A stretch of DNA of 51,476 nt from Bacteroidota bacterium (GTDB taxonomy: Bacteria > Bacteroidota > Bacteroidia > CAILMK01 > JAAYUY01): assembly GCA_016776505.1 (NCBI GenBank), contig JADHTG010000018.1, positions 1-51,476 on the forward strand, given 5' to 3'. The notes below the pieces were generated by a model that was given only the letters and a program-made list of their open reading frames with translations, searched no databases and had not been told where the DNA came from. Shown one piece after another: positions 485 through 51,224 of the stretch. The first letter of the stretch is position 1, and the number at the start of each line of letters is the position of its first letter. The translations under genes were made by a program, and so were the position numbers.

Positions 485-492
485 TATATTTG
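485..492 (+). promoter_or_regulatory. -7 box TATATTTG (proximal act promoter)
   Basis: TATATTTG fits TAnnTTTG, but no -33 TTTG is seen at the right distance. It would start transcription about 20 nt before the ATG at 520. It also contains the TTG at 490, so that triplet is unlikely to be the actA start codon. Confidence 0.4.
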
Positions 493-519
493 TCAGCTAA
501 TCAGACAATGGCATTTTGT

Positions 520-1608
520 ATGAGGTTTTGCAGCAAAGCAGTCAAAGTGATCCTTTATCTTCTATTATTAAATGGATTTAACAGTTATGGAACTGATGAT
601 TATAAAGAATTATTTAAAGAAAATTGTGCAAGCTGTCATGAAATAGGAAGAATACTGACAGGTCCCGATCTGATGAACATCAATTCCCTGCGGACCACTG
701 ATTGGCTAATTGATTTTATTGGGGATTCAAAAAAGATGATTGAAGAGGGAGATCCCATCGCCAATCAACTCTATGAAGAGTATCAAAGAATTGAAATGCC
801 CCCAGCCGGCTTAAGTAAAAATGAGATACTTGGGATACTGGATTATATTGAAAATTTTGAAGTTGTAAAACCAGTCTACCAGCCTTATACAGTGCAAGAA
901 ATAAATAAAACTAGATTCAAACCAACAACTTCATTGATCGCTTTATCCGCTCTCCTTCTTTTGCTGCTATTGTACCTTCTTGGATCCCCCCTATTAAGAA
1001 AAAGATTACCCATGAGTTTTTATATCATCACAATTTCTTTTTTCGGGCTTGCATTCAGTATGAGTGTTTCAAAAAACAGGACAAAACATCTGGTGGCTAA
1101 AGAACAGCATATTGCACAGCCTCTTGAATTCAGTCACAAAGTGCATTACACGGATTACCAGATCGATTGTATTTATTGCCATGAAAAAGCCCTGAATTAT
1201 GCAACTGCCAATTTGCCTTTGCTTTCCAATTGCATGAAATGCCATGATTATATCAGGGAAGGGGAATCTTTTGAAAAAAAAGAAATTGACAAGTTGATCA
1301 AACTGTGGGAGCAGGAGAAGGATATAGCCTGGGTAAAAGGCTACAGGCTAAGTGAGCATGTGCACTTTGATCATGGTTTACACACTCAAACAGCTGGATT
1401 AAAATGTACTGATTGCCATGTGAATATTGAAATTCCAAGCATCACAAAGACCAACGTAAGCATGAAATGGTGTTTAGCTTGTCATGAAAAACAATCAGTT
1501 AACCTTCTTTTAAATTATTATAAAAATGTATATGATACAATATACAATTTCAGTGGATTGATATCATCCCTAAATGGAAGCAGCAATTGCTTTTGCTGTC
1601 ATTATTGA
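520..1608 (+). CDS. actA: ActA, multihaem cytochrome c subunit of alternative complex III
   Basis: Periplasmic, membrane-anchored cytochrome that collects electrons from the Fe-S subunit and passes them to the mono-haem subunit or to an external acceptor. With the ATG at 520 the protein has 362 residues and a signal peptide at about 5-20. CASCH (36-40) with the MPP at 93-95 forms a class I mono-haem domain. Two membrane segments follow (about 138-155 and 165-182). Then come CIYCH (217), CMKCH (238), CTDCH (296), CLACH (318) and, as the last residues, CFCCHY (357-362), giving six haem sites. A terminal CxxCHY is, to my knowledge, usual for Bacteroidota ActA. An in-frame TTG at 490 would lengthen the protein, but it lies inside a -7 box and would put a polar stretch before the signal peptide. 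The actB start is 14 bp downstream of the stop. Confidence 0.9.
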   Translation: MRFCSKAVKVILYLLLLNGFNSYGTDDYKELFKENCASCHEIGRILTGPDLMNINSLRTTDWLIDFIGDSKKMIEEGDPIANQLYEEYQRIEMPPAGLSKNEILGILDYIENFEVVKPVYQPYTVQEINKTRFKPTTSLIALSALLLLLLLYLLGSPLLRKRLPMSFYIITISFFGLAFSMSVSKNRTKHLVAKEQHIAQPLEFSHKVHYTDYQIDCIYCHEKALNYATANLPLLSNCMKCHDYIREGESFEKKEIDKLIKLWEQEKDIAWVKGYRLSEHVHFDHGLHTQTAGLKCTDCHVNIEIPSITKTNVSMKWCLACHEKQSVNLLLNYYKNVYDTIYNFSGLISSLNGSSNCFCCHY

Positions 1609-1621
1609 TAATGAGATGCTA

Positions 1622-4552
1622 ATGAAGAAAAAGGACATATGGACAGCTCTGGATGAGGATGGAAATAAATTAATTCCTGGAAAAAGTCCAATCCCATCAA
1701 CACACATGCGGGATCATATTTTCAATTTCTCATTATTAAAAAGTGACCGGAGAAACTTTCTTAAATCTGTTGGTTTGGGATCAGTTGCCTTCTCACTGGC
1801 TACAGCCTGCTCCAAATCAGCTGTTAAAAAGGGGCTGCCTTTTTTCCCGAATTCATCAGATGCCAAACCCGGACAGGAATTGTACTACAAAACGACATGC
1901 CCGGTTTGTTTGGCACATTGTCCATTGTCAGTGAAAACAATAGATTACAGACCGGTTAAGATCGAAGGAAATAATGAATATCCAAAAACTTCCGGAGGCC
2001 TGTGTGCAAGCGCTCATGCTTCATTATTTGATCTTTACAACAGGGAGAGAATTACAAAGCCATATAAAGGTCCGCTGGAAAAAACATGGAAAGAGCTGGA
2101 TATCGAGATCAGAAGCAAACTTCAAGAGCTTTCCGCCAGGGGAAAAGAAATCGCCATTCTATCCGATCATATCAACAGTCCGGCCAGTTTGCAATTGTTA
2201 AGTGACTTTAAAACTGAGTATCCAGCAACACAGCTTTATTTTTTAAATCCATTATTCCCTGATGCTTTAATTCAGGCTAATAAAAAATGTTTTGGAAAAG
2301 CTGTAATTCCTTCTTTTCATTTTAGCAAAGCCAGGCTGATCGTAAGTTTTGGAGCAGACTTTTTAGCTAGCTGGTTAAACCCGGTGGAATTTACACAGGA
2401 ATATCTTGCCATGCGGGATATTGATAATAGCCGAAGTCTATCCTATCATATCCAATTCGAAAGCCAGTATAGCATAACAGCTGCAAGTGCCGATAAACGC
2501 TTTCGGATCAAACCTTCTGAGGAGGGAATTATCCTCCGCGCATTATATGATTATTTGCAAACCAAATCAATTCTTCCTCCACATAAGCCGATAGAAGAAA
2601 AATACGAAATAGCCCGCTTGGCCGAAAAGCTACTGGAATACAGGGGACGTTCCATTGTGATCAGTTCTTCCAATGATACAGCAATCCAGATGCTGGTAAC
2701 CGGCATTAATTCATTGCTGGATAATTACGGAAGAAGCATCGACCTGGATAATCCATTCCTGAAAATTCCTCAGGAGAATGGAAGTGTAAATGAATTGATT
2801 TCCAAAATTGAAAAAAATCAAATTGCTGCCCTGGTTTGCTGGAACAAGGACCTCCATTCTGATTATCCTGTTTTCAATGATCTGCAGGATAATCTGGAAG
2901 CCATCGAATTGAAAATATCATTCAATCATTATCGTGACCGATTTAGTGAATATGCTGATTATTTATGTCCTGATCATCATTACCTGGAAGCCTGGAATAA
3001 TTATGTTTCAAAAGGCTATTTGAAAATGGCACAAGCTTCCATCAAGCCATTATTTAACAGCAGGCAGGCAGAGGACAGTTTACTCCGATGGATGAAGCAT
3101 CCGGATGACTGGTATGCTTATCTTATCAAGTCAACACAAGCATTCCTGCAGGGAGTCAGTAAAGGGAATGAAGTCGCTATGGAAGAAGTTATTAAAAAAG
3201 GATTTTGGGAGATTCCCCTGACCAAAGCCAGGCAATATAATTTCAAGCAATACCTCGATCCTTATATTCAACAACTGGAATCAGAAAAGAAGGGATCCGG
3301 TGTTTTTGAGATACTGCTGGTTGAAAGTCCGGATTTGAAGTCATACAGTTCGAAACTGAATCCCTTTTTAGCTGAAAAACCAGACCCGGTAAGCAGTTCC
3401 AGCTGGAAGGTGTATGTCAGGATATCACCCAAAACAGCGAAGCAAAATGGAATTAAAGACGGCCAATTCATCAGGATCAGGACAGCCATTGCAGAAATTA
3501 AGATCCCTTGTCTCGTCCAGGCTGGTGTAGCTGATTCATGTCTCATTATTCCGGCAGGAAAGATGGCCGGGGCTTTAATGGAAAAGAATAATTCACTTCA
3601 ACTTTTTGACAGGAGGGCTTTGAGCCATCAAAAAAGCAGCATGCAGGCTGAGATCGATGTCTTGCCAGGGAAGGAAAAAATTTGCAGAACGCAGTCACAT
3701 CATACCATTTCAGTGGAAGCGATTGTTCCTGAAATAAGTTTAAGAGAATACCTGGACAAAGATCCATCACAAAAGAGTGCTGAGCCCCTGTCATCCCTCC
3801 TAACAAAGAAGAGAGACTTTCATCCACATCACTGGGGCATGGTGATCGACCTGAACCGCTGCACCGGTTGTGGAGCATGCAGTGTGAGCTGCCAGGCAGA
3901 AAATAACATCCCCGTAGTGGGAGAAGAAGAAGTCACGAAAGGAAGATCTATGGCATGGATGAAAATTCAGCGATTTTACGAAGGGGAAACAGACAATCCC
4001 TTGATCCGCTTTTTACCTGTTTTGTGCCAGCAATGCGACAATGCCCCCTGCGAATCAGTTTGCCCGGTTTCAGCAGTCAGTAGCAGTACTGAAGGATTGA
4101 ACCAGCAAAATTACTCCAGATGCATCGGGGCTCGCTTTTGTGCCACGAACTGCCCCTATTTAAGCAGGACATTTAATTATAAAAACTACACTTATGAGAA
4201 CCCGCACTCTCCTCACATGTCAGACAAAACCGGCAGACTGATGCTTAATCCGGAGGTAAGTACTCGGGAAAAGGGAACGGCTGAAAAATGCACTTTTTGC
4301 ATACAACGTATTCAAAAACGGAAGGCCAGGGCAAAGCAGGCAAATCAAAGTCTTGCAGATGGGATGATCAAAACAGCATGCCAGCAATCCTGTCCTGCCT
4401 CAGCCATCTATTTTGGCGACATGAAGGATCCGTCCAGCAGGGTGTATCACCTGCTTCAAAGCAAGAGGGCTCACCAGGTTTTAGGAAGAATTGGAACCCG
4501 GCCTTCCATTTATTATTTATCAAAAGTCAGGAATATGGATATGGATATATGA
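1622..4552 (+). CDS. actB: ActB, Tat-exported molybdopterin-like/Fe-S subunit of alternative complex III
   Basis: This 976-residue protein joins a molybdopterin-oxidoreductase-like domain to a ferredoxin domain. It has the extended Tat start of the 'TAT-variant-translocated molybdopterin oxidoreductase' group: a 40-residue lead, then DRRNFLKSVG (42-51), a hydrophobic run and Cys63 in a lipobox-like ATAC. Cys93, 96, 100 and 128 (CxxCxxxCx27C) form the N-terminal [4Fe-4S] motif of true molybdoenzymes. The C-terminal domain (about 740-970) has CxxCxxCxxxC at 747-757, CxxCx4CxxxC at 802-814, Cx5CxxxC at 834-844 and CxxC...CxxxC at 890-924. That makes fifteen cysteines, consistent with three [4Fe-4S] and one [3Fe-4S] cluster. 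ATGs at 1574 and 1616 are possible starts; 1622 gives the cleanest leader and does not overlap actA. Confidence 0.9.
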   Translation: MKKKDIWTALDEDGNKLIPGKSPIPSTHMRDHIFNFSLLKSDRRNFLKSVGLGSVAFSLATACSKSAVKKGLPFFPNSSDAKPGQELYYKTTCPVCLAHCPLSVKTIDYRPVKIEGNNEYPKTSGGLCASAHASLFDLYNRERITKPYKGPLEKTWKELDIEIRSKLQELSARGKEIAILSDHINSPASLQLLSDFKTEYPATQLYFLNPLFPDALIQANKKCFGKAVIPSFHFSKARLIVSFGADFLASWLNPVEFTQEYLAMRDIDNSRSLSYHIQFESQYSITAASADKRFRIKPSEEGIILRALYDYLQTKSILPPHKPIEEKYEIARLAEKLLEYRGRSIVISSSNDTAIQMLVTGINSLLDNYGRSIDLDNPFLKIPQENGSVNELISKIEKNQIAALVCWNKDLHSDYPVFNDLQDNLEAIELKISFNHYRDRFSEYADYLCPDHHYLEAWNNYVSKGYLKMAQASIKPLFNSRQAEDSLLRWMKHPDDWYAYLIKSTQAFLQGVSKGNEVAMEEVIKKGFWEIPLTKARQYNFKQYLDPYIQQLESEKKGSGVFEILLVESPDLKSYSSKLNPFLAEKPDPVSSSSWKVYVRISPKTAKQNGIKDGQFIRIRTAIAEIKIPCLVQAGVADSCLIIPAGKMAGALMEKNNSLQLFDRRALSHQKSSMQAEIDVLPGKEKICRTQSHHTISVEAIVPEISLREYLDKDPSQKSAEPLSSLLTKKRDFHPHHWGMVIDLNRCTGCGACSVSCQAENNIPVVGEEEVTKGRSMAWMKIQRFYEGETDNPLIRFLPVLCQQCDNAPCESVCPVSAVSSSTEGLNQQNYSRCIGARFCATNCPYLSRTFNYKNYTYENPHSPHMSDKTGRLMLNPEVSTREKGTAEKCTFCIQRIQKRKARAKQANQSLADGMIKTACQQSCPASAIYFGDMKDPSSRVYHLLQSKRAHQVLGRIGTRPSIYYLSKVRNMDMDI

Positions 4553-5826
4553 TGACCACAAATTCAAATATGGAATCAGCCGGAAGGAAAAACAAACTGT
4601 GGAGAGCATTACTTGCTCTATCCCTGCTGTTTTTACTTTTAGGAATGATCAGCATTTTCTATGTGTTCAAATATGGTTTGGCTGAATTGGCTCTCAGCAA
4701 TAATATTTTCTGGGGTGTGCTTATTACTAATTTTGTTTTCTGGATCGGAATCGGACATGCAGGAACATTCATCTCGGCCATATTGCTCCTGCTACGACAA
4801 AGCTGGCGAAAAGGAATTAATCGTTTTGCAGAAGGAATGACCATAGTGGCCATTATCCTGGCTGCTCTTATGCCCATCATACATTTAGGGAAACCCGGAT
4901 TTTTTTATAGCCTCCTGCCATTGAATAATAACAGTGGATTTTTTCTGCTTAACTTCAATTCGCCATTGAATTGGGATTTTTATGCAATAGCTACCTATTT
5001 ATTAGTCTCCCTCCTGTTTTTTTATATCGGGCTTCTTCCTGACCTGGCAAGAATGCAAAGGCTGAAAAGAAAAAATAAAGTCATCGCATTCTTTGCAGCC
5101 GGATGGACAGGGACCCAAATGCAATGGCAAAATCACAGGCAAACTCTCTATTTACTGGCCGGACTGGCCACCGTGCTGGTTATTTCTGTTCATTCCATCG
5201 TGAGTTTCGACTTTGCAGTGAGTTTGCATATCGGCTGGCACTCTTCCATTTTTCCTGTTTATTTTGTTTTGGGTGCCTTGCTTTCAGGCTTTGCTATGTT
5301 GTGCATACTGGCTGAATTAAACAGAAGAATAAATAAACTGGATTCTGTTATTCGTCCCGCACATTTTGAGCACATGAGCAAGATCATGCTGGGCACTTCC
5401 ATCTTGTTAACATTTGTATACCTGAACGAAATTTTCATGAGTTTATATGCTTACGACACAAGTGAAATTGCCCTGCTGATACAAAAAAGTTCCGGACCCG
5501 CATCACTTATCCATTACTTCTCTTTATTTCTGAGCATTGGCATTCCTCAATTGTTCTGGATCAAATCAATCCGGATAAATTCAAAATCAGTCATTATTTT
5601 ATGTGCATTGATATTAATTGGCATGTGGCTGGAAAGATTTATGATCATTGTCAGCAGTTCTGAAATGGGTTTTATATCACGCATAACGGAGGAGTATTCA
5701 CTCAACCTGGTTTCCGGTGGAATGATATTATTCGGAATAGGATTCTTTTTTACCTTTTTCTTATTGTTCATTCGCTATTTGCCTTCCATTTCTTATTACG
5801 AACTCTTAACCAACAGGAAGAAATGA
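4549..5826 (+). CDS. actC: ActC, NrfD/PsrC-like quinol-binding membrane subunit of alternative complex III
   Basis: A polytopic protein of 425 residues with about ten membrane helices, of the NrfD family, which carries the quinol-oxidising site of the complex. The stretch FWIGIGHAGTFISAILLLLR, then 'RFAEGMT', 'PIIHLGKPG' and 'FNSPLNWDFYA' are the conserved parts of ActC/ActF helices. The start is set by ATGA at 4549-4552, where the ATG overlaps the actB stop; a second ATG follows at once. The frame is open further upstream inside actB but reads as non-family sequence. The protein is somewhat shorter than the roughly 450-480 residues I expect for the family, mainly at the N-terminus. Confidence 0.88.
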   Translation: MMTTNSNMESAGRKNKLWRALLALSLLFLLLGMISIFYVFKYGLAELALSNNIFWGVLITNFVFWIGIGHAGTFISAILLLLRQSWRKGINRFAEGMTIVAIILAALMPIIHLGKPGFFYSLLPLNNNSGFFLLNFNSPLNWDFYAIATYLLVSLLFFYIGLLPDLARMQRLKRKNKVIAFFAAGWTGTQMQWQNHRQTLYLLAGLATVLVISVHSIVSFDFAVSLHIGWHSSIFPVYFVLGALLSGFAMLCILAELNRRINKLDSVIRPAHFEHMSKIMLGTSILLTFVYLNEIFMSLYAYDTSEIALLIQKSSGPASLIHYFSLFLSIGIPQLFWIKSIRINSKSVIILCALILIGMWLERFMIIVSSSEMGFISRITEEYSLNLVSGGMILFGIGFFFTFFLLFIRYLPSISYYELLTNRKK

Positions 5827-6374
5827 AAGAAATAGTCAGCTCCCGGAAAGCAGTCATGGCAATATTCAGCCAGGAAGGATCCCTGAAAAAAGCGGTCCAG
5901 GTTTTAGAAGATTCCCATGCCGAAATACTCGAAATTAGAAGTCCGTATGATCTGGATATGGATGAATTTAATACGACCCGCTTTGCCAAAAATTCAGGTC
6001 GGATCACTTTTTGGTGCGGACTCACAGGTTTCCTGGCTGCCATAGCCGGTGTTGTGTACCTGCACAATGAGCTTCCCATCCAGTTTGCCATCAAACCTAC
6101 TTTTCCATGGCTTTCTTTCTTTATCCCTGCATTCCTGGCTGCGGTTTTGTTTGCCAGCCTGGGATTGTGTGTATCATTTTTTATTAATTCGCATCTCATA
6201 CCCGGTCAGCAGCAAGCAGATTACAATTGTAAATCCGATGGAGAATCTTTTCTTTTGATATTCACAGCTGGCAATGCGGATATTATTTCTGATTTGGCAG
6301 AGGAAATAACTGAAATAAATTATTACAAACAAAATAAAGCCATTCCTTTTCCAATTAAAATGGAGATTAAATGA
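5823..6374 (+). CDS. actD: ActD, DUF3341 membrane subunit of alternative complex III
   Basis: 183 residues. An N-terminal soluble domain of about 60 residues (AIFSQEGSLKKAVQVLEDS...) of the DUF3341 kind precedes a helical hairpin of two membrane segments at about 60-80 and 95-120 and a short C-terminal tail. ActD flanks the quinol subunits; no cofactor motif is present and its exact role is not settled. It starts at an ATGA overlap with the actC stop (5823-5826) and ends in another with actE, so translation is probably coupled across the three genes. Confidence 0.85.
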   Translation: MKEIVSSRKAVMAIFSQEGSLKKAVQVLEDSHAEILEIRSPYDLDMDEFNTTRFAKNSGRITFWCGLTGFLAAIAGVVYLHNELPIQFAIKPTFPWLSFFIPAFLAAVLFASLGLCVSFFINSHLIPGQQQADYNCKSDGESFLLIFTAGNADIISDLAEEITEINYYKQNKAIPFPIKMEIK

Positions 6375-6883
6375 AGTGGACGAAATTTACATACCTGTTT
6401 TTATTTGCTTTTTTATTAGGACTAAGTAGCTGTCGTCCACCTTCACGGCAAAAAGTCGAAATACCGGATAAAGCTCGATTAAAACCTTCTAATTCAATTC
6501 CTTATAATACGGATACAGAAGAATATTCATATCCAAATTCCAAAGAAGGTTACGAACTGGCAGGCTTGGAGTTAAGGAATCCACTGGCAGTTACAGGACA
6601 AAAGCTGGAGGAAGGAAAAAAACTCTACCTGGCCTTGTGCAAGCATTGCCATGGAGAAACAGGAAATGCGGATGCCGAGATGATCTTGAAGGAAAAATAC
6701 CCGGTTCCACCCACTTTCAGCAAGCGCCTTCCAAATATTACAGAAGGAAAAATGTTTCATTCAATTACCTATGGCAAAAACCAGATGCCACCGAATGGGG
6801 AGGATTTCAGCAGCGAACAAAAGTGGCTGCTTGTTATGTATATTCAAAACCTGGTCAATCTAAACACACAAAAGCCAAAGTGA
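6371..6883 (+). CDS. actE: ActE, mono-haem cytochrome c lipoprotein of alternative complex III
   Basis: 170 residues. A signal peptide ends in the lipobox LSSC (Cys21), so the protein is anchored to a membrane facing the periplasm. One class I cytochrome c domain follows: CKHCH at 90-94 and an axial Met in 'KNQMPPNGEDF' near 140. This is the usual exit haem of the complex, likely to face a small cytochrome or an oxidase domain. The ATG at 6371 overlaps the actD stop (ATGA) and the stop overlaps the GTG of actF (GTGA, 6880-6883). Confidence 0.88.
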   Translation: MKWTKFTYLFLFAFLLGLSSCRPPSRQKVEIPDKARLKPSNSIPYNTDTEEYSYPNSKEGYELAGLELRNPLAVTGQKLEEGKKLYLALCKHCHGETGNADAEMILKEKYPVPPTFSKRLPNITEGKMFHSITYGKNQMPPNGEDFSSEQKWLLVMYIQNLVNLNTQKPK

Positions 6884-7929
6884 GAAAGCTAAAATTCATA
6901 TCGCTGAAGAGAAAACAGACCGGCTTATTAATCCTGTCAGTTCTATTTATAATTGCTGGGGTATTTTGGGCTAAAGATAATATATGGATCAAGCTGTGGA
7001 ATAATTTTGTGTACCTGAACTGGTATTTTTTATTGCTTGCACTATCCGGACTACTGCTTTATTCTTTGCTATCCATCATTCCCAATAATTGGTTTGAACC
7101 CATTCGTAATCAAGCCTTACAACAAAGTTTTTCCATGAAATATCTTTTATTCAGTTTTCTGGTCCTATTTGCTACCAGCCATTTTTTCCATGACCGGCAA
7201 ATCGAAAGTGTTTTCCACGATATTTGGTTCAATCCTGTTTTCCTTTTGCTGAGAGCGATGATCATAATGCTCAGCTGGTATGCATATGCCAATCAATTCA
7301 GTTTGTATAGCAAAAGCTGGTCAGAAAAAATTCGAAAACGGAAATCCATAGAATTCCTTTTGGTTTTCCTTTTCACTTTTTCCCTTTTCAGCTGGGACTG
7401 GCTTATGAGCATTCATGTTGATTATTCCTCTGCCCTGTTTTCTTTTTACATGCTGGTTTCTGCCTTGTTGATGGGATGCGGATTTCTTTTGGTGAGGATG
7501 CACAGGAACAAGCAAATACATCCTTATTCAAATGACCTGGGTCGGCTTACACTGGCTTTTTCCCTCTTCTGGTTGTATTTGTACTTCAGCCAGCTTTTAA
7601 TAGCCTGGTTTACAGCAATACCGCATGAAATCGCTTACTACCATCTTTTGTTCCAGCCTAAATTCCTTCCTTTTCTTGTGATCTCAGCTGGTGGAAATTT
7701 TATACTTCCTTTTCTCCTGCTTTTAAGCAAAAAAAACAGGCAATCTCCAAAGATCCTGCTATGGGCAGGTATTTCCATATTATTGGCTAAATGGTTTGAA
7801 ATCTACCTGTTGGTTGCTCCTTACAACAGTAATTCAATTTCTTCTCTTCCATTAATGGAAATCGGATTTATACTACTGGCCGGACTGGGGTTGGTTCTTT
7901 TGCTGGATAGATTTAACAGAAAAGAATAA
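6880..7929 (+). CDS. actF: ActF, second NrfD-like membrane subunit of alternative complex III
   Basis: 349 residues and about ten predicted membrane helices. The conserved 'DWLMSIHVDYSSALFSFYML' region identifies it as ActF, the paralogue of ActC. The start is a GTG overlapping the actE stop; it is the only act gene without an ATG, and the frame upstream is actE out of frame. At 349 residues it is shorter than ActF proteins I know (above 400), apparently through short loops and no extra N-terminal domain. No oxidase genes follow; the next gene is convergent. Confidence 0.85.
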   Translation: MRKLKFISLKRKQTGLLILSVLFIIAGVFWAKDNIWIKLWNNFVYLNWYFLLLALSGLLLYSLLSIIPNNWFEPIRNQALQQSFSMKYLLFSFLVLFATSHFFHDRQIESVFHDIWFNPVFLLLRAMIIMLSWYAYANQFSLYSKSWSEKIRKRKSIEFLLVFLFTFSLFSWDWLMSIHVDYSSALFSFYMLVSALLMGCGFLLVRMHRNKQIHPYSNDLGRLTLAFSLFWLYLYFSQLLIAWFTAIPHEIAYYHLLFQPKFLPFLVISAGGNFILPFLLLLSKKNRQSPKILLWAGISILLAKWFEIYLLVAPYNSNSISSLPLMEIGFILLAGLGLVLLLDRFNRKE

Positions 7930-16226: not shown

Positions 16227-19200
16227 ATGAAAATAGGTTTTGGAATCATTTTGAGTTTGCTGATGCTGATGTTTAACCTGAATTTTATTACAGAAGTTAA
16301 AGGAGATGAAGGCGATACTATTAAACTGCATGTTTTTGATTATAGCATGAGGGGAAATGTAAAAGAAGGCTGGTTTGTTTTTCCTGATTCAAACACCCGC
16401 TACGAAAAAATATACATGTATTACAGCCTGAAATGTGATCCATTGAATACACCCTATAAATGCGGTGAATGGGATTATCTGACATATACCCATGCATATA
16501 AGAAAACTGGTAATTACGATAAATTTCCAAATTTCCGGGTTGATGGAAATACCGCCGACACCTTTAGTTTTATGAGCTCGCCCAGCTGGAATTATACCAG
16601 CCGCCTGGAGAAAACAATTTCCATTATAGATACGGCCGATCTTAAGCAGGTAAATATTGGAGACTCCCTTAATGCAGTTGAACATACATTTCTTCAACCC
16701 TTGTTGTTTTATCGAATGCAATTTTTATGGAAGGCAAACGAATTGAAACAGTTTGGCCTGGATTCGAATGAGCTGAAAGGATTTCATCTGTATCTTGGCG
16801 ATGAACAAGGTGCAGCTGGAAGAGTAAAAATCCGAATTAAAAATACCAGCCAGGATTCTTTAACTGTTGCAGCCATCGAACAGAATGGCTTTACAGAAGT
16901 ATATGACAGGTCTTTGCTTGTTGGAGCCGGTGGTTGGGTATTTTTTCCTTTCCATACCCATTTTGCATGGGATAGCCTGTCAAATCTGCTGATTGATTTT
17001 TCTGTCAGTCATAATATGAACCTTCAATCCAATAGTAGTTTACAGGAAACCACCGGTTGGCCTTCAGCATTATATTCCAATTCCACGGATTTTGCCCTTG
17101 ATTTTGAAGGAGCAGATTATGTTGAGGTTCCTAACAATAAGTTTGACCTGATTGAAAATGAAATAACGATCGCTCTCTGGCAGTTCGGTGATCCTTCAAT
17201 ACAACCCCAGAATGACAATATTTTTGAAGCATTTGACTCCAACAATAGTCGTGTTCTCAGCAGTCACCTGCCCTGGGGCAACTCCAATGTTTACTGGGAC
17301 GCCGGCCATGATGCAGGAAGCTATGACCGGATCAATAAAGCAGCTGATGTCGAGAACTTTAAAAACCAGTGGAATTTCTGGGTTTTCACCAAAAATGCCT
17401 TAAGCGGAGAAATGCAGATTTACCTCAATGGTGATTTGTGGCATAGTGGCACGGGTAAAACGAGGAAAATGAGTGGGGTGAAATCCTTTAAAATAGGATC
17501 GAATGGAAATGGCGGGGGAAATTATGATGGTTTAATCGATGAATTCAGTATCTGGAATAAAGTGTTGACGGATGAGCAAATCAGGGAATTAATGTACCAT
17601 CAGGCAGATCCGAATGTTGCCCACTTCAATCATCTTATTTATTATTATGGATTTAGTGAAGGCGAAGGAGTGATCACTTCCGACCTGAGTGATCATCCTG
17701 TATCGGCCAGGCTGGAAGGATTGCCTCAGTGGAAGGAACATGGCTCCCTCGACCAATTCAAAAACTTTAAAGTATCGTCTACCAGGCCTATACTTGTCAT
17801 GGATCAAAGTAACTATAATTTCAAAGAGTTAGAAACAGTTCAGATTGACTCCAGCCAGAAAGAATTAAAACAACTCGTTCTTTACAATGATTTTGTTTAT
17901 CCCGATAAGGGCACGGATACACTGTATGTCTGGCCCACTTATTACCGCTATCATTTTGACACGATGGGAGTCAAAATGGATTCTTTTTTAGTTCATGCAG
18001 ACTCAACACTATTCCGTGAAGATCATGCTGCCTATTATGATGAGAAATATGCACAGCTTGAACGTTTTGAAATAGGACGCTATATCACTCCTTATGGAAT
18101 TAACCTCGACCTGGGGAAAGGCTTTTTGTGGGTATATGATGTATCCGATTACGCATCTCTTTTTCATGATTCTGTCAAAATTACTTCTGGAAACTGGCAG
18201 GAATTGCATGACCTGGAATTCATTATGATCGAAGGTACACCAGCCCGTGATCCTCTTGATGTGGTCAATTTATGGAATGCCAGTGTGCCCTATACAGGCC
18301 AGCAGGAAGAGATCCTGCTGCCAAAAACCATTAAGATTAATGAGGATGTGAAGGAAGCTCGATTAAAAATCAGGACTACCGGACATGGATTTGGAGGCAA
18401 TGAAAACTGTGCTGAGTTTTGTGCCAAAACGCACAATGTATTCGTGGATGGCATCAAACGATTCGAGCAGTTTGTGTGGAGAGATAACTGTGGAAGCAAT
18501 CCTGTTTACCCGCAGGGAGGAACATGGATTTACAACCGTGCCAATTGGTGTCCCGGAGCTGAAGTATATACAGATAATTATGAAATGGGAAAATACATAA
18601 GCCCGGGAGATTCGGTCGATATCGACTACAATTTCCAGAGCGGCTATTCATGGAATGGTTCCGGAAGCCGGCCCACCTACGTGGTGGCTTCACAATTGGT
18701 CACATTTGGAGAATTCAACTTTGATTACGATGTGGGTATTGATCACATTATAAAACCAAACAAGTGGGAATTTTATTCTCGTGAAAATCCATCCTGTCAT
18801 AGTCCAAAAGTGATGTTTACAAATTATGGTTCCAAAACGATCAGCTCTATATTGTTAAAGTATGGATCACTACAGACAGATTTAGCCAGTTTTCGATGGG
18901 ATGGAATACTGAAACCCCTGGAATCAGCAGAAGTTGAATTGCCTTTTTATTGGGGCAACTGGGATGGGAATGATCGTTTCAGAGTAAGTATTTCCACAGT
19001 AAACGGAATGGTTGATGAATATGAAAGAAACAACACCGCTTATAGCTGGTTTGAATTGCCGCCAGTTTATCATCATCAGCTTTTATTCTATTTAAGGACG
19101 AATAATGCAGCTTCAGAAACATCTTACTCATTGGTGGACGGGGCAGGCAAGACCTTGTATTCCCGGAATGCAGGCTCCATGTCGAATAATACCATGTACA

Positions 19201-19679
19201 TCGACACATTTGATTTACCGGTTACTTACGGATGTTTTAAACTGGAGATCAAAGATGCTGAAGGAGACGGACTTTCATTCTGGGCAAATAATGATGGCAA
19301 TGGCACTGCTCGTTTAAGGAAAATGGGTGGGACATTCTATCCACCTATTGAAGCTGATTTTGGGAATGAATCCATCATTTATTTTACTACAGGATGGTCT
19401 TTGGGTGAGAAAGTAACGGGATCCAATGCAAATGAGCTTCATGTTTATCCAAATCCTGCAGATAAGAAAATATATGTCCAGTTCAATCTTAATGAAAAGG
19501 CCAACACCCGCATACAGCTTTTGGATTTATTCGGAAATATTGTCCAGGATTTTAATTTAGGTTGGTCACAGGCCGATATGTTTGAAATCAAGCTTCATGA
19601 ACTGGCTGCTGGTTTTTATTTTGTGAGGTTTCAAGCAGGAGATCAAATATGGACGAAAAAAGTATTGTTGAATAAGTAA
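16227..19679 (+). CDS. Secreted PNGase F-like protein with inserted LamG domain and T9SS sorting domain
   Basis: 1150 residues with a signal peptide at 1-27. Residues about 30-90 match the start of PNGase F (peptide-N4-(N-acetyl-beta-glucosaminyl)asparagine amidase), including 'KCGEWDYL' with Asp83 at the place of catalytic Asp60. A LamG/concanavalin-like domain (about 285-485) then interrupts. PNGase F homology returns at 'RYITPYGI' (about 619) and runs through 'TTGHGFGGNENCAEFCAKTH' (Glu730 matching Glu206) and 'NRANWCPGAEV' to about 800. A further beta domain (about 890-1040) and a T9SS sorting domain (about 1065-1150, 'ELHVYPNPADKK' to 'KVLLNK') follow. It is probably exported through the T9SS and displayed or released to cleave N-glycans from glycoproteins. 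The position of PNGase F Glu118 holds 'TSGNW', with no Glu. Activity is inferred, not shown. Confidence 0.82.
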   Translation: MKIGFGIILSLLMLMFNLNFITEVKGDEGDTIKLHVFDYSMRGNVKEGWFVFPDSNTRYEKIYMYYSLKCDPLNTPYKCGEWDYLTYTHAYKKTGNYDKFPNFRVDGNTADTFSFMSSPSWNYTSRLEKTISIIDTADLKQVNIGDSLNAVEHTFLQPLLFYRMQFLWKANELKQFGLDSNELKGFHLYLGDEQGAAGRVKIRIKNTSQDSLTVAAIEQNGFTEVYDRSLLVGAGGWVFFPFHTHFAWDSLSNLLIDFSVSHNMNLQSNSSLQETTGWPSALYSNSTDFALDFEGADYVEVPNNKFDLIENEITIALWQFGDPSIQPQNDNIFEAFDSNNSRVLSSHLPWGNSNVYWDAGHDAGSYDRINKAADVENFKNQWNFWVFTKNALSGEMQIYLNGDLWHSGTGKTRKMSGVKSFKIGSNGNGGGNYDGLIDEFSIWNKVLTDEQIRELMYHQADPNVAHFNHLIYYYGFSEGEGVITSDLSDHPVSARLEGLPQWKEHGSLDQFKNFKVSSTRPILVMDQSNYNFKELETVQIDSSQKELKQLVLYNDFVYPDKGTDTLYVWPTYYRYHFDTMGVKMDSFLVHADSTLFREDHAAYYDEKYAQLERFEIGRYITPYGINLDLGKGFLWVYDVSDYASLFHDSVKITSGNWQELHDLEFIMIEGTPARDPLDVVNLWNASVPYTGQQEEILLPKTIKINEDVKEARLKIRTTGHGFGGNENCAEFCAKTHNVFVDGIKRFEQFVWRDNCGSNPVYPQGGTWIYNRANWCPGAEVYTDNYEMGKYISPGDSVDIDYNFQSGYSWNGSGSRPTYVVASQLVTFGEFNFDYDVGIDHIIKPNKWEFYSRENPSCHSPKVMFTNYGSKTISSILLKYGSLQTDLASFRWDGILKPLESAEVELPFYWGNWDGNDRFRVSISTVNGMVDEYERNNTAYSWFELPPVYHHQLLFYLRTNNAASETSYSLVDGAGKTLYSRNAGSMSNNTMYIDTFDLPVTYGCFKLEIKDAEGDGLSFWANNDGNGTARLRKMGGTFYPPIEADFGNESIIYFTTGWSLGEKVTGSNANELHVYPNPADKKIYVQFNLNEKANTRIQLLDLFGNIVQDFNLGWSQADMFEIKLHELAAGFYFVRFQAGDQIWTKKVLLNK

Positions 19680-38995: not shown

Positions 38996-41305
38996 ATGAA
39001 AACGCCATCCTTATTCAAATTACTTTTCCCTTTGGTTTTTTGTACTCTTATATCTTTTACAGAAGCTTTATCTCAAAGTTATGCATTGGATTTTGATGGT
39101 GCGAACGACTACATTAACTTAGGGAATTCTTCCACGCTTAAAGGAAGTGATTATATCACCGTTGAAGTCTGGGCTTATTCAACAAACTGGGCCGGGCTTT
39201 CAGATGGAACACTGGTAGGAAACGAACACAACGATGGAGGATGGCAAATAAAAGTAAATGCAGCTGCTTCTAAAATCCAGGGATGGTTATGGAGAGATGG
39301 TGATGTGGCTAAGCCTGGATATGACTTATCGAGCTTAAGCAGCGGTTGGCATCATTTTGCTATGACCTATGATACACGTTACACCAAGTTTTACGTGGAT
39401 GGTATTTTAAGGGAAACAGATGATGCTACAGGAAATAATCCTATTGATGACAATCCTACAAATTCAACACTGATAGGTGCTGATGTAGCTAATGGCGCTA
39501 TTCCACAAACTGCTTTCCAGGGAGGACCTGACTATTTTTCAGGTTTAATTGAGGAAGTCAGGATTTGGGATGAAGTTTTAGCCATAGCCACCATCAGGGA
39601 TTGGATTCACCGTGAAATATCTACAGATCATCCCAATTACAGCAATTCTGTAAGTGATGATTTAAAGGCCTATTATCAAATGTCAGATGGATCAGATTCC
39701 AGCTTGACTGATAACAGCGCCAATACCAACACAGGATCCATGAAGAATATGAATAATAGTGACTGGGTCAGTTCAACTGCACCTATTCCCTTTACATCAG
39801 TTTCCAATGGCAACTGGAATACCAGTTCGACCTGGTCGAGTTCAACGGTTCCAAATTCAGAATGGGCCATTGTAGTAATTGATCATAATGTAAACCTGGA
39901 TATGGATGCTACCTTGTTTAATGTAACGATCAACAGCAGTAAAACATTGACTGTCAATGCTGGAAAATCTTTAACCGTAGGTGGTTTAATCAGCAATTCC
40001 GGTACTTTTAATGTCAAAGAGAATGCATCATTTATTGACAATGGCAGTGTAAACGGGGGTGGAACCTACCAGGTAGAAAGACCTATCAGTGAAAGCGGCT
40101 GGCATTATGTTTCACCACCGGTGGCAAATCCTACTGCGAATTTATTCTGGGGTTCCGCATTATATGAATACAATGAAACCACTGCAAGCTGGGATTCAAA
40201 AAAAGCAGGAGACAACCTGGTGGTCTGCAAAGGATATGACACTTATTACAAACCTTCTGCAGCCGGTACTGTCACATTCGCCGGAACATTTAATACAGGA
40301 ACACAATCCATCAATATCAGTTATACCGGCGCTGCCGGTACAGGCTGGAACCTGGTGGGAAATCCCTACCCTTCTTATCTGGATTGGGACGCCAGCGGCT
40401 GGACAAAAACCAATTTGAACAATGCAGTGTATGTATGGGATCCTGACCAAAGCAATGTGGCTTCTTATGTTGGTGGTATAGGTACAAACGGGGGTTCACC
40501 TTATGTGGCACCTTCACAGGGATTTTTCGTAAGAGTAAACAGCGGAGGTGGTTCAGTTGGAATGACAAATGAGGTCAGAACACATACCACAGAGACTGAA
40601 TTCCGTGATAATGCAAAAGATGATTTACTGAAACTAAAAATAAGTGGAAACGGATACAGTGATGAAACAATCATTTGCTTTGATCCACATGCTACAAATG
40701 ACTTTGATGGCAATTATGATGCTTTTAAAGTAGAAGGTTCAAACCTGTTAACTCCACAGATTTATACACGAAGTGCAGATATGGAAGAACTCTCTATCAA
40801 TACATTTGAAGGATTATACGAAAGCACCTCCATTCCGCTTTTTGTAAAAGTAGGTAAAACTGCTGAATACGAGATTTATGTGAATGTAGCTGACTTTGAT
40901 CAATACACCCAACTTTATATGGAAGATCTGACAGACGGACAAATTTATGATCTTCAGGAACAATCCAAATTAACCTTTAAAATAGACGTCAATGATAACC
41001 CTGAGCGCTTTATTATTCATTTCACTCCTTTACAGACAGTCGAAATGCAAACAACCAATGGAATTAACCAAAACGAAAAAGAGATCGTTAACATTTACAC
41101 AAATAATAAGCATATTTACATCCACATTGATGAGTGGGAGTATTCCCAAATAAGTATTTACAGTATAATAGGTGATGAGGTTTACAAAGGAAACCTGAAT
41201 AGCTCACTTAGCAAAGTAAATCTTGATGACTCAGCAAATGGATACTACATTGTTCATGTGAGTAAAGGCAATCAAACCTATTCACAAAAAATTGTAATCA
41301 AGTAA
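38996..41305 (+). CDS. Secreted LamG-domain protein with T9SS sorting domain
   Basis: 769 residues. Signal peptide to about 27 ('LISFTEALSQSYA'). A LamG/concanavalin-like domain (about 28-235) with 'YALDFDGANDYINLG', 'SGWHHFAMTYD', 'KFYVDG' and 'GLIEEVRIWDEVL' probably binds glycan. A middle region (about 265-545) has a beta-solenoid-like stretch ('LFNVTINSSKTLTVNAGKSL') and a module with 'GWNLVGNPYPSYLDW' typical of Bacteroidota surface proteins. The last 80 residues ('IYTNNKHIYIHIDEW' to 'QKIVIK') form the T9SS sorting domain. Its LamG opening resembles that inside the PNGase F-like protein ('FALDFEGADYVEV'). No catalytic motif seen. Confidence 0.82.
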   Translation: MKTPSLFKLLFPLVFCTLISFTEALSQSYALDFDGANDYINLGNSSTLKGSDYITVEVWAYSTNWAGLSDGTLVGNEHNDGGWQIKVNAAASKIQGWLWRDGDVAKPGYDLSSLSSGWHHFAMTYDTRYTKFYVDGILRETDDATGNNPIDDNPTNSTLIGADVANGAIPQTAFQGGPDYFSGLIEEVRIWDEVLAIATIRDWIHREISTDHPNYSNSVSDDLKAYYQMSDGSDSSLTDNSANTNTGSMKNMNNSDWVSSTAPIPFTSVSNGNWNTSSTWSSSTVPNSEWAIVVIDHNVNLDMDATLFNVTINSSKTLTVNAGKSLTVGGLISNSGTFNVKENASFIDNGSVNGGGTYQVERPISESGWHYVSPPVANPTANLFWGSALYEYNETTASWDSKKAGDNLVVCKGYDTYYKPSAAGTVTFAGTFNTGTQSINISYTGAAGTGWNLVGNPYPSYLDWDASGWTKTNLNNAVYVWDPDQSNVASYVGGIGTNGGSPYVAPSQGFFVRVNSGGGSVGMTNEVRTHTTETEFRDNAKDDLLKLKISGNGYSDETIICFDPHATNDFDGNYDAFKVEGSNLLTPQIYTRSADMEELSINTFEGLYESTSIPLFVKVGKTAEYEIYVNVADFDQYTQLYMEDLTDGQIYDLQEQSKLTFKIDVNDNPERFIIHFTPLQTVEMQTTNGINQNEKEIVNIYTNNKHIYIHIDEWEYSQISIYSIIGDEVYKGNLNSSLSKVNLDDSANGYYIVHVSKGNQTYSQKIVIK

Positions 41306-50063: not shown

Positions 50064-51224
50064 ATGCAAAACAAAGTACATCAAAAAATCAATTTGGCAA
50101 CTATCCGTTTAAGTCGGTTTAAACAGAATGGGTTCGACTACATTCGCATTGATTTTCCCTTTGATGATAAATTGATACATTCCGTAAAAAAGATTGAAGG
50201 AGCCAGCTGGAACAAAAGCAACCGATGCTGGCTCGTTCCCAATAAGCAGGATAATTTGAAGGCAATTCAAACAGTTTTTAAAGGACTTGCATGGATTGAC
50301 AGCAAAGCATTATTTGCCAGCAGGCACAAAAAAGATCAAAAAAATAAATACAGAAAGCCTGCGATTAATCTGAATCCAACTGCAAAACAAACAATAATTG
50401 ATTTTGAAAAATTCATGGTAGCAAAGCGATATAGTGTAAATACGATCAAAAACTATATTTCACTATTAACAATATTTTTATCCGGTTTCCCTGCAAAAAA
50501 TCCGGAAGAAATAAGCAATGAAGACATGATTGAATATGCCAATGAATTTATTGTAAAAAGCGGGTATTCAATCAACTATCACAGGCAAATGGTCAGTGCT
50601 GTAAAATTGTTTTTCTCCATTCAGCTGAAAAGAAAGGTGGAACTGGAATTATTAATCCGACCCAAAAAGGAAGATAAACTACCCAAGTTTTTATCACGGG
50701 AGGAAATACTAAAAATCCTGTTGGCGACACGCAATAAAAAACATAAATTAATTATTCTGTTACTTTTTGGCTGCGGATTAAGGAAATCAGAAATACCCAA
50801 TATCAGCTTATCGGATATCCGCAGGGATGTGAATTTGATCCAGATCAGGGATGCCAAGGGGAGGAAAGACAGATTGGTTCCTTTACCGGTCAAAATTTTA
50901 AGTTTGATGGAATTGTATTATAAGGAAGAAAAACCCAAAAAATATTTATTTGAAGGGCAGACAGGCGGGAAGTATTCTGCTGAAAGTGTTTACCAGGTAG
51001 TGAAGCATGCCGGGAAGAAAGCGGGTTTGATGAGGCCCATATCGCCTCATATGCTGAGGCACAGTTATGGAACTCAACAAACAGAGCAGGGTATTAACAC
51101 ACTTACGCTGCAAAAAATCATGGGGCACAGAAGCAGTAAAACAACGGAGATTTACAGTCACATCAGTCAAAAGCAAATTGGGAATACATCCAGTCCAGTT
51201 GACAACCTTGATATAGGTATTTAG
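50064..51224 (+). CDS. Tyrosine recombinase/integrase
   Basis: 386 residues. An N-terminal arm-like domain (about 10-85), a SAM-like core-binding domain (about 105-185), and a catalytic domain (about 205-370) with the complete set of active residues: Arg240 ('GCGLRKSE'), Lys265 or Lys268 ('DAKGRKD'), His329 and Arg332 ('HMLRH'), His355 ('IMGHRS') and Tyr364 ('TEIYSH'). So it is likely active. It matches the XerD-like integrases common in Bacteroidota. No excisionase, transfer gene or attachment repeat is seen beside it, but the window ends 250 bp later. Confidence 0.88.
   Translation: MQNKVHQKINLATIRLSRFKQNGFDYIRIDFPFDDKLIHSVKKIEGASWNKSNRCWLVPNKQDNLKAIQTVFKGLAWIDSKALFASRHKKDQKNKYRKPAINLNPTAKQTIIDFEKFMVAKRYSVNTIKNYISLLTIFLSGFPAKNPEEISNEDMIEYANEFIVKSGYSINYHRQMVSAVKLFFSIQLKRKVELELLIRPKKEDKLPKFLSREEILKILLATRNKKHKLIILLLFGCGLRKSEIPNISLSDIRRDVNLIQIRDAKGRKDRLVPLPVKILSLMELYYKEEKPKKYLFEGQTGGKYSAESVYQVVKHAGKKAGLMRPISPHMLRHSYGTQQTEQGINTLTLQKIMGHRSSKTTEIYSHISQKQIGNTSSPVDNLDIGI

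Follow-up and report, generated by a model that had tools for sequence, protein, structure and literature searches.

The window analyzed here is a 51,476-nucleotide stretch from a draft Bacteroidota genome (GenBank assembly GCA_016776505.1, contig JADHTG010000018.1). On its forward strand lies a gene for a protein related to peptide-N-glycosidase F (PNGase F), in which the catalytic domain is predicted to be split by a large insert carrying a LamG domain, and which ends in a sorting domain of the type IX secretion system (T9SS). The features of the gene are as follows, with window coordinates, strand, and residue numbers.

16227..19679, +, whole gene (1150 aa), split PNGase F-type enzyme with T9SS tail (open frame, Pfam, homologs of the same layout)
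16227..16304, +, likely signal peptide, residues 1-26 (helix at 2-21 in the predicted model)
16308..16505, +, first PNGase F segment, residues 28-93, with W82-D83-Y84 (alignment up to PNGase F residue 70, fold match)
16473-16475, +, codon of D83 (equivalent to Asp60 of PNGase F)
16506..18050, +, 515-residue insert, residues 94-608, between the matches to PNGase F residues 70 and 71
16506..16670, +, first half of the arm, residues 94-148, boundary approximate (pre-LamG profile, some short-arm relatives)
16671..17081, +, jelly-roll domain of the insert, residues 149-285
17082..17765, +, LamG/pentraxin-like domain, residues 286-513
17265..17333, +, LamG motif HxPW..YWDxG..DR, residues 347-369 (conservation among homologs)
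17829..18050, +, second half of the arm, residues 535-608, boundary approximate (matches the insert of nine short-arm relatives)
18051..18719, +, second PNGase F segment, residues 609-831, with RYITPY, G655, E659, H720, and E730 (PF09113, alignment, fold match)
18414-18416, +, codon of E730 (equivalent to Glu206)
18729..19406, +, C-terminal segments Ct1 and Ct2, residues 835-1060, of no assigned family (no Pfam match)
19443..19676, +, T9SS type A sorting domain, residues 1073-1150 (PF18962, TIGR04183)

The two PNGase F segments and their insert

The second catalytic segment was recognized by Pfam as N-glycanase_C (PF09113) at residues 698-793 (80.3 bits against a cut-off of 25; E = 1.5e-22), and a phmmer search against PDB sequences aligned residues 609-825 with PNGase F 71-300 at 69 bits. 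The same search aligned residues 45-93 with PNGase F 26-70 at 2.8 bits, which is not significant alone, and a family profile matched the first segment at 12.7 bits (i-Evalue 0.17). PF09112 did not match the first part, either in the whole protein at E values up to 1 or in residues 27-96 at E values up to 10. An initial annotation, made from the sequence alone, had proposed a profile search for each segment; Pfam recognized the second and not the first. The insert splits the Pfam PF09112 model while the fold match takes in this part, so that the missing hit lowers detection rather than the assignment, which, with Pfam silent and the alignment weak by itself, rests on the alignments together with the predicted fold. 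In the predicted model, the protein has the double jelly-roll catalytic fold of the PNGase F superfamily, and the fold match to PNGase F spans residues 25 to 831, including both flanking segments, which are predicted to close into one double jelly roll around the insert. The initial annotation had proposed such a single fold split by a LamG-bearing insert, to be abandoned if the flanks failed to form one fold; in the model they assemble, in agreement with the alignments.

The flanking alignments end at the adjoining PNGase F residues 70 and 71, and the gap between them is 515 residues. D83 and Y619 are 536 residues apart, whereas their PNGase F counterparts, D60 and F81, are separated by 21. 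The earlier estimate of more than 500 residues, against about 20 in the classic enzyme, therefore holds, and D83 and E730 lie where they had been placed (CGEWD, 79-83; RYITPY, 618-623; CAEFC, 728-732). The LamG domain that had been reported in the insert is also present (LamG_3 at residues 294-452; E = 2.1e-18) and has a LamG/pentraxin fold; the arm and the jelly roll that accompany it had not been seen, nor had the glycine at the Glu118 place or how common this architecture is. In the predicted model, D83 directly precedes strand 85-97 and the ITPY loop directly follows strand 609-620, while the insert begins about 10 residues past D83 and connects the opposite ends of these two strands. The original suggestion that the insert sits next to the active site is thus unsupported, since the chain enters and leaves the insert at the hairpin end opposite D83 and ITPY. 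The arm nevertheless appears long enough in the model (strands 121-138 and 529-544) that it could swing the LamG domain back over the site.

Relatives and residue conservation

A protein search returned 1311 homologs at an E value of ≤0.001. Conservation counts are based on the best 120 of these, and thus on near relatives with identities of 37 to 100%, the 100% match being the window protein itself. PF09113 was found in all 120 and a Pfam LamG domain in 119 (the exception is P0068), and some homologs already have public database entries, under the name "peptide-N-glycosidase F-related protein." In a sample of 395 genomes from the same phylum group, PF09113 occurs at 71 places in 61 genomes; G074 was left out, and 70 loci were mapped with family-built profiles. 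Proteins with a recognizable first segment, second segment, and Ct1 fell into three classes: 22 with the full insert, including the window protein (in the other 21, the profile matches lie 498 to 537 residues apart), 9 with a short arm (106 to 113 residues), and 7 without an insert (4 to 19 residues). Another 33 loci stand outside the tree built from these classes; 32 of them score weakly or show no match to the first segment or to Ct1, and L001 is a shortened version of the window gene, which was entered as win_full.

In the 38-row tree, calculated with the insert excluded, all 22 full-insert rows lie on one side of a branch with support of 99/97, and the short-arm and insert-free rows are intermixed outside it; one row, L123, sits at the end of a very long branch. 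The simplest reading of these sequences is that the big insert arose once; the arm may have preceded it or may have been lost repeatedly. In some short-arm relatives (such as L026, L030, and L119), the first half of the arm is the sole matching part of the pre-LamG profile. Ct1 is present in all 38 proteins of the tree, and Ct1 and Ct2 also occur in insert-free relatives. Among the best 120 of 1223 matches, we found eight insert-free PNGases with Ct1 and Ct2 that are fused to a GH29 alpha-fucosidase (P0190, P0204, P0208, P0213, P0214, P0221, P0223, and P0230); N-glycan chemistry therefore fits the subfamily. P0230 and the full-insert protein P0034 may share a contig, both being listed with 647026 bases as the longest. 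A GTDB scan yielded at least 582 stretches encoding a relative, and the best 80, which were examined, are by title mainly Bacteroidetes/Bacteroidota drafts, with some from Chlorobiota and Ignavibacteria.

Residues W82, D83, Y84, H720, E730, R771, and W774 are present in 120/120 homologs, as are six cysteines (C70, C79, C728, C732, C755, and C775), and in the phylum sample D83, H720, and E730 are kept by all 22 proteins with the full insert. In PNGase F, the six cysteines form three disulfides. H720 occupies the place of PNGase F Trp191. An aromatic-Asp-positive/aromatic motif and a His-plus-Glu loop are broadly common to the PNGases compared in one study, from which PNGase F deviates by having Trp there (PMC12381499); the window protein, unlike PNGase F, conforms to the common form. 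Both Glu118 and Arg61 of PNGase F are replaced. The Glu118 place is taken by Gly655, with Gly found in 112 of the 120 homologs and 20 of the 22 full-insert proteins. In type II PNGases, Gly at this place gives space for core α1,3-fucose, and the coordinating role has likely passed to another Glu (PMC9522356). Because Q658 and E659 are invariant (120/120 homologs and 22/22 full-insert proteins) and type II enzymes offer this precedent of a substitute Glu, E659 is a candidate replacement acid for Glu118.

Conservation within the insert is uneven. Columns at least 95% identical in the 120-homolog alignment number 29/170 in the LamG core, compared with 14/68 and 49/221 in the catalytic segments, 3/137 in the jelly roll, and 1/53 and 6/72 in the arm halves. 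The invariant LamG residues include W318, P349, W350, Y356, W357, D358, R368, W382, W385, and K389, and the motif residues P349, W350, Y356, W357, D358, G360, and R368 occur in 120/120 homologs. The motif was present in 76 of the best 80 GTDB loci, a biased set because these loci were found partly through the motif itself; the PF09113-picked phylum sample is fairer, and there 18 of the 22 full-insert proteins retain HxPW..Y(W/F)DxG..DR. The other four (L136, L138, L148, and L149) have a full-size insert and lack both the motif and C732 of the catalytic loop. HxPW..YWDxG..DR was absent from the seven other LamG rows examined (five distinct domains from four genes).

Among known systems, PNGase F of Elizabethkingia meningoseptica (1pnf/1pgs) is without the insert between residues 70 and 71, and the window protein differs from it further in the Glu118-to-Gly and Trp191-to-His replacements, the T9SS tail, and the two extra C-terminal segments. 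PNGF-II (4r4x/4r4z) and B035DRAFT_03341 of B. massiliensis (7zgn) have an N-terminal bowl-like domain ahead of the catalytic domain, and the latter contains no large insert (PMC9522356). The window protein has the Gly of type II enzymes at the Glu118 place, and its catalytic segment begins at about residue 28, leaving no space ahead for a bowl-like domain, which one group 2 sequence likewise lacks (PMC9522356). PNGaseL and PNGaseDo resemble the window protein in their PNGase F superfamily membership, T9SS signals, and accessory beta modules, one of which is modeled over the active site in PNGaseDo; unlike the nested insert, however, these modules flank the catalytic module on its N- and C-terminal sides, and the words "insert," "LamG," and "laminin" appear nowhere in the available part of that paper (PMC12381499). 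Zebrafish Ngly2 (9lwg), a lysosomal enzyme with an acid optimum, carries thioredoxin-like and protease-associated domains ahead of its catalytic domain rather than splitting it (PMC12753239). The pentraxin/LamG domains of PAPP-A, PTX3, and BACOVA_03559 (4dqa) are 17 to 18% identical to that of the window protein and are not, as it is, nested inside a PNGase. A 60-residue insertion has been noted in 3ks7 (PMC8812541). A literature search, which covered few subscription journals, retrieved no title or abstract on a LamG domain or other large insert in PNGase F, and no characterized member of this clade. The split PNGase F with its LamG domain is a clear example of one domain nested within the fold of an enzyme. 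Since arm-only and insert-free relatives exist, the steps of insertion are open to experimental comparison.

Possible function and competing explanations

The sorting tail assigned in the initial annotation is borne out by matches to PF18962 (residues 1073-1146; 51.1 bits; E = 1.6e-13) and TIGR04183 (42.3 bits), and the genome encodes sprA (SprA_N, 559.5 bits), the single T9SS component searched for; together, tail and sprA point to export by the T9SS. We lean toward the explanation that this T9SS-tailed split PNGase frees N-glycans from extracellular glycoproteins, with the LamG domain holding the glycoprotein. D83 and E730 would hydrolyze the GlcNAc-Asn amide, converting Asn to Asp; Gly655 may leave room for core α1,3-fucose, as on plant, algal, or invertebrate glycans; and the LamG face with the conserved motif would bind a glycan or polymer. 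More specifically, in this large Bacteroidota clade the tip of the hairpin might have become a nested binding apparatus, in which the arm swings the jelly roll and LamG domain over the cleft, so that the LamG domain and the active site read one glycoprotein and the enzyme serves to open it to proteases instead of feeding on its glycan, a tentative proposal that we consider unlikely as a whole.

Several observations weigh against glycan release with a substrate-holding LamG domain. The model has a predicted template modeling score (pTM) of 0.66, which makes the placement of the domains uncertain, and by its topology the insertion point is at the hairpin end distal to D83 and ITPY. The LamG motif is lost in 4 of the 22 full-insert proteins, which retain D83, H720, and E730, and C732 is gone in 7 of the 22. 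No neighboring gene is conserved, any one gene standing beside the insert-bearing gene at no more than 10 of 81 loci. Finally, GH92, GH29, and GH20 had no match in the source genome, which is 92.8% complete; because these families are missing, the source organism, judged by its gene content, is not a standard N-glycan degrader. For the same reason, peptide access would be a more probable benefit than glycan feeding, although four GH130 matches and one GH18 match are there.

Alternatively, an active PNGase may carry the insert as a spacer, tether, or dimer contact, with the LamG domain off the substrate and only anchoring the enzyme to the cell surface or a polymer. This is possible, if on the unlikely side: it would suit the distal insertion point, the four proteins with catalytic residues and no LamG motif, and the relatives with the arm alone or no insert. 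Conservation is, however, much stronger in the LamG core than in the jelly roll and arm, which argues for more than a mere spacer, even though a LamG domain bound to the cell surface would be conserved likewise. We consider it improbable that the protein has kept the PNGase fold and is not an N-glycan amidase, acting instead on another glycan-amide bond or as a binding protein. The replacement of Glu118 and Arg61 and the unmatched GH92, GH29, and GH20 would agree with such a change, as would the finding of GH92 in 3/21 genomes with full-insert proteins against 21/24 with other PNGases (Fisher P = 8e-7, uncorrected for kinship, with genome groups assigned by hand). GH92 occurs in 3/16 genomes with only short-arm or insert-free subfamily members. 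Yet the GH92 contrast is weak against all 395 genomes (139/395 with GH92; P = 0.058). D83 and E730 are moreover invariant in both samples, Glu118-to-Gly is known from active enzymes (PMC9522356), and insert-free relatives are fused to GH29. A misassembly chimera, or a frame error fusing two genes, might be suspected in a contig from a draft genome in 129 pieces, but it is ruled out for practical purposes: the reading frame is open end to end, the listed homologs of 37 to 69% identity, from several sources, repeat the layout, which is therefore neither chance nor an assembly error, and 21 more full-insert proteins occur in the sampled genomes.

Wider interest and other genes of the window

Glycobiology relies heavily on PNGase F as a tool, and there is demand for PNGases active on native glycoproteins that bear core α1,3-fucose; the clade described here is widespread and carries a built-in, strongly conserved LamG domain. 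Elsewhere in the window, a second T9SS-tailed protein (38996-41305, +) has an ordinary LamG_3 domain. A run of multiheme cytochrome, molybdopterin/Fe-S, and NrfD-type genes (490-7929, +) resembles an alternative complex III operon, and a phage-type integrase gene (50064-51224, +) lies at the end of the window.
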